Source of the DNA: Planctopirus ephydatiae
Lineage (GTDB): Bacteria > Planctomycetota > Planctomycetia > Planctomycetales > Planctomycetaceae
Direction: 5' to 3'
DNA length: 64,000 nucleotides
Assembly (NCBI RefSeq): GCF_007752345.1
Contig: NZ_CP036299.1
Span: 4,436,001-4,500,000, forward strand
Part shown: positions 14,516 through 42,176 of the stretch, piece after piece
Layout of the letters: every line of letters begins with the position of its first letter
Position numbering within the stretch: position 1 is the stretch's first letter
Position numbers and translations under genes: made by a program
Notes under the pieces: model-generated
Told to the model about the DNA's origin: nothing
Database searches by the model: none
What the model saw: the letters and a program-made list of their open reading frames with translations, nothing else

Positions 14516-14887
14516 GTCCGCCAGAAATATCAACGGATCAGCGTTACTGCGAAACCAATCATACGATCCCAGAGATAAAAGGCGTGTTGAGGGTCTGTAA
14601 GGCATGCTTCCTCGGAGCCGCAAGCATGGCACGACCATCGTTTTAAATCGTGGAGTTGGCACATCTCAGGGCGTTAAGGTCAAGCCAGCCTTGCCTGCTT
14701 AACAGTTATCTGGTTCGTTTGATGCCACTGGCCCCGTGAAGAAATGTTTTTCAATTCTGTATCGCAGGGGGTGACTGTTGCTGGCAGATAGCAGTTGATA
14801 GAACTGTGAGATGTGAGTTGTTGCCAGATCTTATCAGGAGAGAGTGTTGAATCTCCTGTCGTAATTGCTCGCGAATGGCGGGTTCCT
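14516..14887. other. Intergenic region, about 370 bp, with one dispersed repeat
   Basis: The gap between the sulfite/nitrite reductase and the HlyD-type gene. The only recognisable element is a copy of the 32-nt dispersed hairpin repeat at 14601-14632. Confidence 0.45.
14601..14632 (-). repeat. Dispersed 32-nt hairpin repeat, copy A
   Basis: The minus strand reads GTGCCATGCTTGCGGCTCCG then AGGAAGCATGCC, two differences from the best copy at 33431. The arms CATGCTT and AAGCATG pair around a GC-rich loop. It lies downstream of the sulfite/nitrite reductase gene. It belongs to a four-copy family in this window. Confidence 0.8.
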
Positions 14888-31517: not shown

Positions 31518-32444
31518 TTGCATTTACAACAATCTGAAAACCGTCTGATTGTTCAGGCACCCGCCAAGCTCAACCTCTCTCTGCGGATTCTCGCGCGTCG
31601 TCCTGATGGTTTTCACGAGATCGAGACGGTCATGGTTTCCATCCAGCATTACGACACGCTCTCCTTCGCCCCCTCTTCCCAAGTTGACATTTCCTTTCGA
31701 TTCGAGGACTTGACGTACCATTCATTAGCAGCAGCAACACACTCTTCGACAGTTGAAACGGCTGTTGTCCCTCAGGATCACACCAATCTGGTTGTTCGTG
31801 CGGCACTCCTGCTGAAGGAATATGCAAACGTTAACTACGGAGCCGAGATCCTCCTGCAGAAAAGAATTCCGGCTGCCGCCGGTCTGGCGGGTGGTTCCAG
31901 TGATGCAGCTGCAACCCTGGCAGCCCTCAATCAGTTATGGAATCTTCGGTTAAATTTACAGGAACTTTCTCAGCTCGCGTCACGGTTAGGAAGTGACATT
32001 CCCTTCTTCCTTTGCGGCAAACCGATAGCAGTCTGCCGCGGACGTGGTGAGATCATTGAGCCTGTCGAGCTTCAGGAAAAGCTGTGGTTTGTTGTGGCAA
32101 AACCACAAGCCGGACTCTCGACAGCACTCGTCTATCGACATTGCCAACCCACCCAGGATTCGCCCTCAATTGCTCCCCTGCTCAGCAACCTGGCGAATGG
32201 AGATCAAATCAGCGCGGCACATGCTTTGCATAATGGACTTCAAGCAGCAGCAGTCGAGCTCTGCCCTGCAATTCGTCAGCTCGAGTCCACTTTTGCAAAC
32301 CTTGATGTGATTGCCCATCAAATGAGCGGAAGCGGGACTGCTTACTTCGGTTGGTGCAGAAGCGAAACGGCAGCTCAAACTGCAGCCCAGCAACTCACTC
32401 ACCTGGGACTGGCACAGGTCTTCGTGGCTTGCTCCGGATTATAA
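31518..32444 (+). CDS. ispE: 4-diphosphocytidyl-2-C-methyl-D-erythritol kinase
   Basis: A 308-residue GHMP kinase of the MEP isoprenoid route. The N-terminal VQAPAKLNLSLRILARRPDGFHEIETVM is the family signature, KRIPAAAGLAGGSSDAAA is the ATP-binding glycine loop, and LGSDIPFFLCG contains the catalytic Asp. The start is a TTG at 31518, supported by AAGGTGAG five bases upstream and by the family start only ten residues further on. Length is normal. It stands alone between divergent argB and the downstream SpoVG gene. Confidence 0.94.
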   Translation: MHLQQSENRLIVQAPAKLNLSLRILARRPDGFHEIETVMVSIQHYDTLSFAPSSQVDISFRFEDLTYHSLAAATHSSTVETAVVPQDHTNLVVRAALLLKEYANVNYGAEILLQKRIPAAAGLAGGSSDAAATLAALNQLWNLRLNLQELSQLASRLGSDIPFFLCGKPIAVCRGRGEIIEPVELQEKLWFVVAKPQAGLSTALVYRHCQPTQDSPSIAPLLSNLANGDQISAAHALHNGLQAAAVELCPAIRQLESTFANLDVIAHQMSGSGTAYFGWCRSETAAQTAAQQLTHLGLAQVFVACSGL

Positions 32445-32788
32445 CGTGGATTGGCAATCAAACGACGAGATTCGTCTCACTCCCATCTCTCGCTAAATAT
32501 CGTGTTTGTGGTGGTGCTGAGTGACATGCTTGCGGCTCTGTGCAAGTTTGCCTTCTACATATTACCTCGCGATATTTGCGATCAATCGTCCATCGAAGTT
32601 CTGACGGCCTTTCAATGCGTAACGATCTGCACTCTCGTCAACCGTTGAATGGCCATCGTTTTTGTCTCATTTCAACCTGTTTTGTGCTGAGAGTTGGCAC
32701 AGATTTTTCAGTGCTGATTCAACAATCGTGATGTTCTGTCATTTCATTCTACCGGTGTTCGTCATTCCGAATGATGAGGAGTACGGCC
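32445..32788. other. Intergenic region, about 340 bp, with one dispersed repeat
   Basis: The gap between ispE and the SpoVG-type gene. It contains the most divergent copy of the 32-nt hairpin repeat (32521-32552) and, at its end, the ribosome site GAGGAG at 32776-32781. Confidence 0.45.
32521..32552 (+). repeat. Dispersed 32-nt hairpin repeat, copy B
   Basis: Reads GTGACATGCTTGCGGCTCTG then TGCAAGTTTGCC. Four differences from copy C at 33431; three of them weaken the hairpin, so this copy may be decaying. It lies downstream of ispE. Confidence 0.7.
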
Positions 32789-33379
32789 ATGGAAATTACC
32801 GAGATTCGCATCAAGCTCATGGATGATCCCAGCGAGCGGTTGCAGGCCTTTTGTTCGATCACGCTTGATGGATGTTTTGTCATTCGTGATCTGAAAATCA
32901 TTCAAGGGACACGCGGCTCTTTTGTCGCCATGCCCAGCCGCAAACTCATGGATCGCTGCCCCAGATGCTCATGTAAAAATCATTTAAGAGCACGATTCTG
33001 CAACGATTGCGGTTGTGAACTTCACGAAGAACGTGCCGGTAAAGCTGATGATGGCCGCGCCAAGCTCTATGCCGATATCGCCCATCCCATCAACTCTGAA
33101 TGCCGCGAACGCATTCAAGCGAACGTGATTGTGGCCTACTCGCTGGAGTTGGAGAAAGCCAAACTCCCCGGCTACGTCTGCACTTACGACGACTTTGGCG
33201 AAGAAAACTACGCTACCAGTGTCGAAGAAATTACCTACACTCCGATGGTTCCCCACTCGGCAACCACATCAACTGCAACAGCCACCTCTTCAACAGCCAC
33301 CACCAGTCGACCACGTCATACTTTCGTTAATCGAGTTGCTCAACTTGAAGAAGAGGGCTTTGGCTCCGGTCTGGTCTGA
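32789..33379 (+). CDS. SpoVG-family protein with inserted zinc ribbon
   Basis: A 196-residue protein. Residues 1-50 ([20 protein letters not shown]..., [18 protein letters not shown] and SFVAMPS) match the N-terminal half of SpoVG, a small DNA/RNA-binding regulator. Residues ~95-130 ([22 protein letters not shown]) match its C-terminal half, which is normally only about ten residues further on. Between them lies an insert of about 45 residues with C57-x2-C60, C71-x2-C74 and extra Cys62 and Cys76, a zinc-ribbon pattern. After the SpoVG part comes a Thr/Ser/Ala-rich linker and a short charged tail. GAGGAG seven bases before the ATG at 32789 fixes the start. Nucleic-acid binding is known for SpoVG; the function of the insert is unknown. 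It is not a sporulation gene here. Confidence 0.85.
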
Positions 33380-33430
33380 TCTGATGACAACCAACCTGAT
33401 ACGGATTTCAGAATTAAACTTTGATTTGTG

Positions 33431-33462
33431 TGCCATGCTTGCGGCTCTGAGCAAGCATGCCT
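33431..33462 (+). repeat. Dispersed 32-nt hairpin repeat, copy C (best match)
   Basis: Reads GTGCCATGCTTGCGGCTCTG then AGCAAGCATGCC. The arms GCCATGCTTGC and GCAAGCATGCC fold into a stem of about ten pairs with one mismatch. It is 52 bp after the SpoVG-type gene. Confidence 0.85.
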
Positions 33463-33571
33463 AACTGAATTTCGACTCACCGTTGATTTCTGGAATACAC
33501 ATTTTTGACCTAAGGATGAGCCGGTCATCCCCACCATTATGGCGGACTACTCGATCAAACCCCCAAAACGC

Positions 33572-33608
33572 AAAACACCCGGCTGCATGACGCAGTCGGG
33601 TGTTTTTT
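33572..33608. terminator. Bidirectional rho-independent terminator
   Basis: AACACCCG-GCTGC pairs with GCAG-TCGGGTGTT around an ATGAC loop, followed by TTTTTT on plus and preceded by AAAA on the other side. It lies between convergent genes ending at 33379 and 33693, so it can serve both. Confidence 0.88.
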
Positions 33609-33692
33609 AATTTCCATGGCTGTTTGGGATCTGCAAAGAACCTCAGCCAAGACTTGTTCAATCAACCAGCAATTTCTCGAAAAAGAGCTTCC

Positions 33693-35570
33693 TTACTTCA
33701 CCACAAAGTTAATGCTGCTGCTGGTGACTCGACCCGAAAGCTCATCATGGACCGTCAACTTCAGTGAGTGCGGGCCCAGTGGCATCTTCTCGGGAATCGT
33801 GAACTGGTAATTGTGGAAGTAATCTCGCCGTTCATTGCGGCACAAATCTTCTGTTGGTGGGAACTCGATCTGATGCCGGATTTCACCAGCGGGGCTGATG
33901 ATGTCAATCTTGGAACGAAGGAGTGTTCGATACTGGCCTTCCGGTGTCAGTTCACTCTGGAAGTTCTCCGCCTCAGCATAAACCAGCACTTCCTGTCCTG
34001 GGCGGAACTCGTCCCGTGGGAACTTCTCGTAGTTTCCAAAGTACCAGATCTGTTTGCAGAAACAGACATTCCGCAGCTCCAGTCGAGCCATCTGCTTGAG
34101 CTTGGAAACACCCGCCTGGAATTGAGCCACAGCCTGACTGGCGCGATCGGCCGTCTGCGGAATCTGCTTGCTGTCAAAGTAATTCGATAACCCCCAGAGC
34201 ATCTGCTGCCAGAACTCCTGCTCTGAGGCAGGAATACCGGGAATAGCTGCCATTGCCCGCTCTGGCCGATCAGCCATCAGATACAACAGCCGCAGATAAA
34301 CGTGCTGACGTAAGTAATAGTCGCGGCTCTCGGGCGATTCCCCTCGCGTTAACAGGTTGACGGAAGCTTCCGTCTGGCTAATGAGTTGATCGAGAGAATC
34401 ACCCCCGGCAGAACTGAATCCCGCTTGTGAACCACTAACACTGGAACTTCCCGTCGCTGAGACTCTGGTCACAGGTGACTGAACCACACCAAACTTTCCG
34501 GCTGGCCCTAATGTCGCATTAGCAGCCAGTGCGGAAGTATTCCGGGAAGCGGTCTGATTCGTGACAGATTCCTGATAACTTTGTGGCTGAATCGGCCCAG
34601 AGGCTCCCGCGGTCTGTTCGGAAGAGTTTTGATCCACACGATAGAAAGCACTTTGCACTCGTTCTTTGGTTCCCGCTGCCACTTCATGGCGAGCCTGCTC
34701 AACTCCCGTACCGGAAGCCTGTCGGTGAGCCTCCAGATCACGATGCTGGGCCAGCTGAATCGCTGAACGTGGCGAGCGCTGCAGATCATCGGGCCCACTT
34801 CCCGTCCCGGCTCCATTTTCCATTTCACTATTGGCCCAGGGCGAGGCATTCCCCATGCCACTGTTCGCAGCCTGAGGTTTTTGAGTATTGGTCGAATGCC
34901 CCCATGCGGGCGCAGATCCCTGAGCAGAGGCTACAGCGTCGGCCCAGGGCTGATTTCCCGGTGGATTCGCTTCGGCTTGCCGGGCGGTGAGCTGCAAAGA
35001 CATTCGGCGAGCCTGCAGAATCTGAGGCACAACGGCCGGATCGACCTTCTTGAGCTGGTCGTACCAATAAGCCCGTTCTTCTGCATTCGCACCAGCTAAT
35101 TCCTGATCGATCAGCCTTAAAGTCGCAGGAGACATTCCTCCCGCTCCCGTTGCCGAAGAACTGTCTGCATCGACATTTTTCGCCACAGAATGCTGGGCAG
35201 ATGGCGCAGGTTCGACTGGCATCTCCGGCGCTGTCGAAGTTGGCACCTTCTGGCTGCGAGAGGCCTGAAACGGCGATTCAGAAGTATCAGTTTTGGGTTC
35301 AAGAGGCCCATCGGCTTTGGCCAGGAGCTTCTCAGGATCGATGATCTTGACTGGGCTCAATGACTTTTTCTCGGCTGAATCTGTCTTCGCTGAAGCCACA
35401 CTCTTTTCATTCGACGGCTGCTTTTCTGGCTTATTCCAAACCAGGCGCGGCCCACCCGTGGTGTTGCAACCCACAGGCAAAACCAGACATCCGAAACACA
35501 CCAGCCAGGCAGCACCCCACACCCTCTGGCGTGGGTTCAAGGCATCCTGGTTTGAAGGTTTCTGGAACAT
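33693..35570 (-). CDS. Large lipoprotein of unknown function
   Basis: A ~625-residue protein. From the ATG at 35570 it has a signal sequence with the lipobox CLVLPVGC, so it is probably lipid-anchored. Residues ~40-330 are low-complexity, rich in Ser, Ala, Gln, Pro and Asn, with little predicted structure. A helical part follows (LDQLISQTEASVNLLTRGESPESRDYYLRQHVYLRLLYLMADRPERA). The last ~120 residues form a beta-rich domain (RNVCFCKQIWYFGNYEKF, VLVYAEAENF, PLGPHSLKLTVHDELSGRV) like an immunoglobulin-type sandwich. This last part looks the most conserved. Function is unknown; an envelope scaffold is only a guess. The upstream HtrA-like and cytochrome-like genes are on the same strand. Confidence 0.75.
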   Translation of the reverse strand: MFQKPSNQDALNPRQRVWGAAWLVCFGCLVLPVGCNTTGGPRLVWNKPEKQPSNEKSVASAKTDSAEKKSLSPVKIIDPEKLLAKADGPLEPKTDTSESPFQASRSQKVPTSTAPEMPVEPAPSAQHSVAKNVDADSSSATGAGGMSPATLRLIDQELAGANAEERAYWYDQLKKVDPAVVPQILQARRMSLQLTARQAEANPPGNQPWADAVASAQGSAPAWGHSTNTQKPQAANSGMGNASPWANSEMENGAGTGSGPDDLQRSPRSAIQLAQHRDLEAHRQASGTGVEQARHEVAAGTKERVQSAFYRVDQNSSEQTAGASGPIQPQSYQESVTNQTASRNTSALAANATLGPAGKFGVVQSPVTRVSATGSSSVSGSQAGFSSAGGDSLDQLISQTEASVNLLTRGESPESRDYYLRQHVYLRLLYLMADRPERAMAAIPGIPASEQEFWQQMLWGLSNYFDSKQIPQTADRASQAVAQFQAGVSKLKQMARLELRNVCFCKQIWYFGNYEKFPRDEFRPGQEVLVYAEAENFQSELTPEGQYRTLLRSKIDIISPAGEIRHQIEFPPTEDLCRNERRDYFHNYQFTIPEKMPLGPHSLKLTVHDELSGRVTSSSINFVVK

Positions 35571-42144: not shown

Positions 42145-42176
42145 AGCATGCTTGCTCAAAGCCGCAAGCATGGCAC
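42145..42176 (-). repeat. Dispersed 32-nt hairpin repeat, copy D
   Basis: On the minus strand it reads GTGCCATGCTTGCGGCTTTG then AGCAAGCATGCT, two differences from copy C. It occupies most of the 96 bp between the convergent cyanophycinase-like and hydrolase-like genes. Confidence 0.85.

Follow-up and report, generated by a model that had tools for sequence, protein, structure and literature searches.

The SpoVG protein encoded in a stretch of Planctopirus ephydatiae DNA (the window, 64,000 nucleotides in all) contains within its core a basic insert that sequence comparison and structure modelling support as a DZR-like Cys4 zinc ribbon. It lies exactly between the two regions described as determinants of nucleic-acid binding in SpoVG of other bacteria. 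To the reading that a structural Cys4 zinc ribbon adds a second nucleic-acid contact to planctomycete SpoVG we give roughly even credence. The ORF and the parts of its SpoVG core are as follows.

32789..33379, + strand: spoVG-family ORF, 196 aa (ORF list; Pfam PF04026, E 8.8e-27)
32789..32938, + strand: N-terminal half of the SpoVG core, residues 1-50, to FVAMPS (Pfam, structure sequence, alignment)
33065..33160, + strand: second half of the SpoVG core and C-terminal helix, residues 93-124 (Pfam, alignment, AlphaFold)

An alternative in-frame ATG at 32771 would lengthen the ORF, which is read here from the ATG at 32789, by six residues. Both halves of the SpoVG fold are present, as the original prediction had claimed: a single PF04026 alignment covers residues 1-118 (model positions 1-81/82) with 93.5 bits against a Pfam cut-off of 29.6, and the sequence of the S. 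epidermidis SpoVG structure aligns in two pieces, to residues 1-55 and 94-118. Using the predicted model as query, the top ten Foldseek matches were all SpoVG structures (E 5.6e-6 to 7.7e-5), and in VIA-align the best chains from three SpoVG entries reached Z scores of 10.7-11.5. The cut-off of the NCBIfam equivalog for the septation regulator SpoVG, NF009749, was missed (85.8 vs 108 bits). A PF04026 search of the source genome returned the window ORF as the sole match, and the closest protein among the best 80 of 134 relatives was that of a MAG labelled 'Planctomyces sp.' (98% identity). On the basis of sequence and model we take the window protein to be the planctomycete form of SpoVG, a family of small nucleic-acid-binding regulators. 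With SpoVG of Bacillus, Staphylococcus, Listeria and Borrelia (PF04026; 2ia9, 2i9z, 2i9x) it has in common both halves of the fold, the basic doublet, DIAHPIN and the helix arginine; unlike the window protein, the solved structures have a 7-residue loop, no ribbon and no long tail.

The extra residues are located between the FVAMPS-RK strand and the start of the DIAHPIN helix and include the motif C57-x2-C60-x10-C71-x2-C74, the four cysteine positions being those named beforehand and found again in the ORF translation. K52 and D96 are separated by 43 residues, compared to 7 in ordinary SpoVG, so that 36 are extra; the earlier estimate that about 10 residues had been replaced by about 45 was close. 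The insert can be divided into the following parts.

32945..33025, + strand: zinc-ribbon insert proper, residues 53-79 (alignments, AlphaFold, Foldseek, Pfam profiles)
32957..32968, + strand: first knuckle, codons of C57-C60 (sequence; invariant in a 51-row alignment)
32999..33013, + strand: second knuckle, codons of C71-C74 and G75 (sequence; invariant in a 51-row alignment)
33026..33064, + strand: variable linker behind the ribbon, residues 80-92 (low column identity; drop of pLDDT past residue 80)

An insert at this place has been published as a phylum marker and is therefore not peculiar to the window protein. Gupta et al. 2012 (PMC3444138) report a SpoVG insert of 36 aa (legend: 32-36) that was shared by all Planctomycetes sequenced at the time and absent from every other organism; it is the same 32-36 aa insert, handled there solely as a signature indel. 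The words 'cysteine', 'zinc', 'ribbon' and 'metal' are absent from the available text of PMC3444138, the alignment figure set aside. Among the literature matches listed, we found neither a description of a zinc ribbon in SpoVG nor an account of the identity or role of the insert. As far as searched, the insert is thus already known, while its ribbon nature and placement appear undescribed.

To keep the estimate of cysteine conservation from being circular, loci were found with the PF04026 model, which is free of the insert. A similarity scan of genome contigs had given 134 relatives, of which the best 80 were taken; since one of its six patterns included two of the cysteines, this set (the source of alignment A1) leans to cysteine-bearing proteins, and the main counts therefore use the PF04026 loci. 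Of 393 genomes sampled from the phylum with a requested completeness of 90%, 262 gave a PF04026 match. Of the genomes shown as belonging to the same family or class, 95 had a match and four were listed without one; a further 111 genomes, unlisted and unmatched, come after rows sharing only the phylum and were for that reason taken to lie outside the class. Loci were read for the 30 best-scoring matches, for 25 genomes with a low score or several copies, and for hand-picked stretches chosen for spread. Together these represent 123 of the 262 genomes, comprising 121 with the ribbon, one (G186) in which it is split at contig ends, and one (G058) with an insert-less form only. Among the PF04026 matches listed, the spans were 342-381 bases for the 82-position model, about 100 above what an insert-less protein needs.

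The four-cysteine motif was present in 127 of 140 ORFs at the PF04026-found loci (125 unique). The remaining 13 comprise two fragments of ribbon proteins cut off at contig edges (L134, L153) and 11 paralogues without the insert. Insert-bearing homologues without the cysteines were looked for and none was seen, all 127 ORFs keeping all four residues at the spacing C-x2-C-x10-C-x2-C; five of them hold an extra cysteine nearby. The motif was also found in the best 80 loci of the similarity scan, where the first knuckle of two Gemmata-type proteins (L072, L076) reads C-x-C, and in 8 of 13 viral-contig loci. That the insert might be a peculiarity of one protein or an artefact of the gene model was considered and rejected. 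In the 125 unique rows the cysteines are conserved throughout (125/125), but these rows were selected by the motif; N64 and G75, which played no part in the selection, are each conserved in 125/125 as well, so that the ribbon signature is not due to chance. K63 is kept in 121/125 and R67 in 99/125. Mean column identity over the 125 rows was 0.70 for the core, 0.66 for residues 53-79 and 0.45 for residues 80-90.

The identity of the insert as a zinc ribbon, proposed in the original prediction, is supported by the invariant cysteines, the predicted fold and family profiles. Two CxxC(G) knuckles at fixed spacing are retained in the homologues, as expected for a Cys4 zinc ribbon. AlphaFold modelling with 51 sequences gave pLDDT values of 79, 87 and 94 for residues 51-60, 61-70 and 71-80, and of 70 and 55 for residues 81-90 and 91-100 (pTM 0.56); given this pTM and the drop after residue 80, the ribbon fold is predicted with confidence, but its orientation relative to the core is uncertain. 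Modelled alone with 71 sequences, the insert folded separately, with pLDDT 87-88 in both ribbon blocks. Foldseek matches of the insert alone were mainly one-zinc Cys4 ribbons (RadD, RanBP2-type fingers, NZF, ribosomal L40e-type) and included ZRANB2 with single-stranded RNA (3g9y); VIA-align again pointed to such domains, FUS with UGGUG (6g99) among them, and RBM5 was another structural match. These matches were weak (Foldseek E at least 0.13; VIA-align Z at most 3.2); high Foldseek E-values may be expected for about 27 residues, and VIA-align Z scores this low mean little alone. At E 0.1 or better, Pfam profiles recognized 71 (DZR), 61 (Zn_Ribbon_1) and 45 (RanBP) of 71 insert sequences, although the DZR score of the window protein was below the gathering score (20.4 vs 27.3 bits), the DZR model consisting of two ribbons and the insert of one.

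The CxxC...N...CxxCG pattern is common to the insert and to the double zinc ribbon and Zn_Ribbon_1 families (PF12773, PF13240), but unlike the double ribbon of PF12773 it is here a single ribbon set inside another domain. The insert also resembles RanBP2-type fingers (ZRANB2, FUS, RBM5, Nup153, NZF) in predicted fold and in their spacing, C-x2-4-C-x3-N-x6-C-x2-C, which C57, C60, N64, C71 and C74 fit. The fingers named that have been solved are eukaryotic, and RNA-binding fingers of this type have a Trp two residues ahead of the first cysteine. The insert differs in having no Trp there: residue 55 is D, the commonest residue at that position (71/125). As members of this structural class also include binders of ubiquitin or Ran, similarity of fold does not by itself give the function.

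The placement of the ribbon may relate it to nucleic-acid binding. According to PMC3688583, K50 and R51 of S. aureus SpoVG are each required for DNA binding, a swap of six residues where the C-terminal helix begins (S66-E71) alters the sequence preference, and this specificity segment is described for SpoVG of both S. aureus and Borrelia. RNA binding by the Listeria protein, with an apparent Kd of 273 nM for Rli31, is nearly ten times stronger than its DNA binding (PMC4959528). In the window protein, both the basic doublet and the specificity segment are found at the positions described in PMC3688583.

32939..32944, + strand: R51-K52 doublet, equivalent of S. aureus K50-R51 (PMC3688583; R51 in 122/125, K52 in 121/125)
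33095..33112, + strand: S103-R108 (SECRER), equivalent of the helix specificity segment (PMC3688583; R106 in 124/125)

The ribbon lies exactly between the two, with C57 five residues past K52. Its stretch of 27 aa has a mean net charge of +3.3 and is positive in 125 of 127 proteins (negative in two), compared to a mean of -0.4 for the 50 residues ahead of it; counted by eye, the window's own ribbon (residues 53-79) carries only about +2. The specificity segment varies outside R106, with 93 forms among 127 proteins, and no single DNA target therefore need be phylum-wide. It includes a cysteine, C105, which recurs in 94 of the 127.

Beyond the core the protein extends into a tail, which contains the following features.

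33245..33343, + strand: low-complexity Thr/Ser/Ala linker, residues 153-185 (composition of residues 151-185; low pLDDT)
33359..33376, + strand: conserved C-terminal motif FGSGLV (FGxG[ILV] near the C terminus of same-class proteins)

That this tail is not part of standard SpoVG, as had been noted from the sequence, holds; that it is of low complexity describes it incompletely, because it ends in a conserved FGxG[ILV]. Of 52 complete same-class proteins, 44 have the strict motif close to the C terminus, as do 9 of 71 others; for the looser FxxG[ILV] the counts are 45 of 52 and 22 of 71, respectively. None of the eight ribbon copies on viral contigs has the FGxG motif. Within the source genome, no other protein was found to share the tail: an 18-base DNA pattern matched 28 places, none tail-like by eye, vs 31 for the reversed control, the pattern allowing TGG besides stop codons and missing the C terminus of the window protein itself, which is one residue longer.

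The distribution of the two forms of SpoVG was examined within and beyond the phylum. Eight planctomycete genomes contain 11 divergent, insert-less SpoVG-like paralogues (L136, L142-L151), and seven of the eight also have the ribbon form. The 'all Planctomycetes' of Gupta et al. therefore needs refining, as insert-less paralogues exist in the phylum. Outside it, no trusted case of the insert was found in a thin test covering plasmid, phage and viral collections and one Chloroflexi group. A MAG labelled Chloroflexi (L035) has a planctomycete-type SpoVG with the insert (66% identity); because this is the only genome of 101 in the group with any SpoVG match, the contig is probably mis-binned. The 12 matches in the plasmid collection (eleven Firmicutes, one Fusobacterium) span at most 6 bases beyond the covered query and are therefore without the insert. 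Of 13 matches in the phage collection, 11 cover about 60% of the query within 240-261 bases, too short a span to accommodate the insert, and the remaining two are too partial to tell. Of 13 SpoVG matches on viral contigs, 8 had the ribbon and 5 were without insert. The ribbon forms are on IMG/VR contigs of 22-164 kb (L225, L226, L229-L232) and 6-7 kb (L227, L228). On L225 the gene is near polynucleotide-kinase-like, endolysin-like and HNH-like genes; on L231 it lies among many small ORFs, three of them without a PHROG match. The terminase profile phrog_2 matched weakly (19.2 bits) in two of the eight ribbon-bearing records and not in the largest. These contigs are putative phages, perhaps of planctomycetes.

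The gene upstream of the ribbon spoVG is conserved in cellular loci.

31518..32444, + strand: ispE-like GHMP kinase, upstream of the ribbon spoVG (Pfam; homologue on the same strand in cellular loci)

Of the 81 ribbon loci with a length of 6 kb or more, 73 have an ispE-like homologue upstream in the same orientation, with 73/73 among the cellular and 0/8 among the viral loci, most of the cellular ones coming from the similarity scan (best 80 of 134), an uneven sample of the phylum. In Firmicutes the order is ispE-purR-yabJ-spoVG, the basis for comparison with Bacillus; of two plasmid-collection regions checked for it, one had other neighbours and one was unannotated. No recurring metal or redox gene beside the ribbon spoVG was seen among the 25 commonest neighbour clusters.

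A second nucleic-acid contact is the plausible reading that position and charge of the ribbon favour. C57, C60, C71 and C74 would bind one structural zinc, and the ribbon is built into the loop between the strand end with the backbone-contacting doublet R51-K52 and the S103-R108 helix. It would stand beside the known binding face and touch RNA or DNA at a second site, the likeliest ligand being single-stranded RNA; this may raise affinity or supply a different recognition element, while the flexible tail with its FGxG end may recruit a partner. The protein would then regulate in the manner of SpoVG, post-transcriptionally or at the level of transcription, through a compound binding surface. 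The main rival is that the ribbon makes no nucleic-acid contact and instead docks a protein partner such as RNA polymerase, the ribosome, an RNase or another regulator, perhaps the same partner as the FGxG tail. Many of the structural matches bind protein (NZF-ubiquitin, RanBP2-Ran), and the conserved K63, N64 and G75 together with the conserved tail end would fit a fixed partner; however, the ribbon is mostly basic and placed between two nucleic-acid determinants, and N64 and G75 may merely serve the fold. We regard docking as possible but less than probable.

The ribbon might also be purely a structural brace, replacing the loop and stiffening the hairpin or an oligomer with no ligand of its own. 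Cys4 ribbons are, as general knowledge, often structural, and the linker behind this one is variable, but conservation is not confined to the cysteines and ordinary SpoVG needs no ribbon to fold, and we consider a mere brace unlikely. For the metal or redox sensing raised by the original prediction no supporting evidence was found. A redox or zinc-level sensor, in which the cysteines switch nucleic-acid binding, would have parallels in Cys4 zinc sites generally known as redox switches in other proteins, and could draw on the extra, common C105 in the specificity segment. Against it, the one conserved neighbour found is ispE-like and not a metal or redox gene, and the same motif occurs unchanged in records labelled anammox bacteria (L062, L091, L101), which suggests a structural role across metabolisms; a sensor thus appears very improbable.

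Carrying the second nucleic-acid contact further, Planctomycetota SpoVG might be a two-site RNA-binding global regulator in which the ribbon reads a single-stranded motif by the SpoVG face and a partner in RNA processing or transcription is recruited through the FGxG tail, with phages carrying tail-less ribbon copies to use or subvert the system; this wider scheme we offer speculatively, as unlikely in its entirety. Widespread as SpoVG is, little is known of what it does beyond Borrelia and a few Firmicutes. An insertion throughout the planctomycete genomes read, between the binding determinants, amounts to a natural experiment on nucleic-acid recognition by SpoVG, and it marks a candidate post-transcriptional regulator in bacteria of unusual cell biology with at least one genetically tractable species. 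As to whether spoVG is essential in Planctopirus limnophila, the gene was not found in the main text of PMC10632474, nor in that of PMC6952346. New here are the DZR-like identity proposed for the ribbon, its place between binding determinants, the FGxG[ILV] tail, the ispE-like neighbour, the putative-phage copies and the insert-less paralogues.

The spoVG gene is followed by a terminator-like hairpin and flanked by two copies of a REP-like palindromic repeat, CATGCTTGCGGCTCTGNGCAAG, which extends to a hairpin.

33572..33606, + strand: terminator-like hairpin downstream of spoVG (3 such sites in 32400-33700, mean of shuffles 1.0)
32525-32546 and 33434-33455, + strand: REP-like repeat copies flanking spoVG
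14607-14628 and 42151-42172, - strand: further REP-like repeat copies in the window

At up to 2 mismatches the repeat has 141 copies in the genome, compared to 0 for a reversed control, and the copy at 33424-33470 has a predicted fold of -16.8 kcal/mol (z -2.7).
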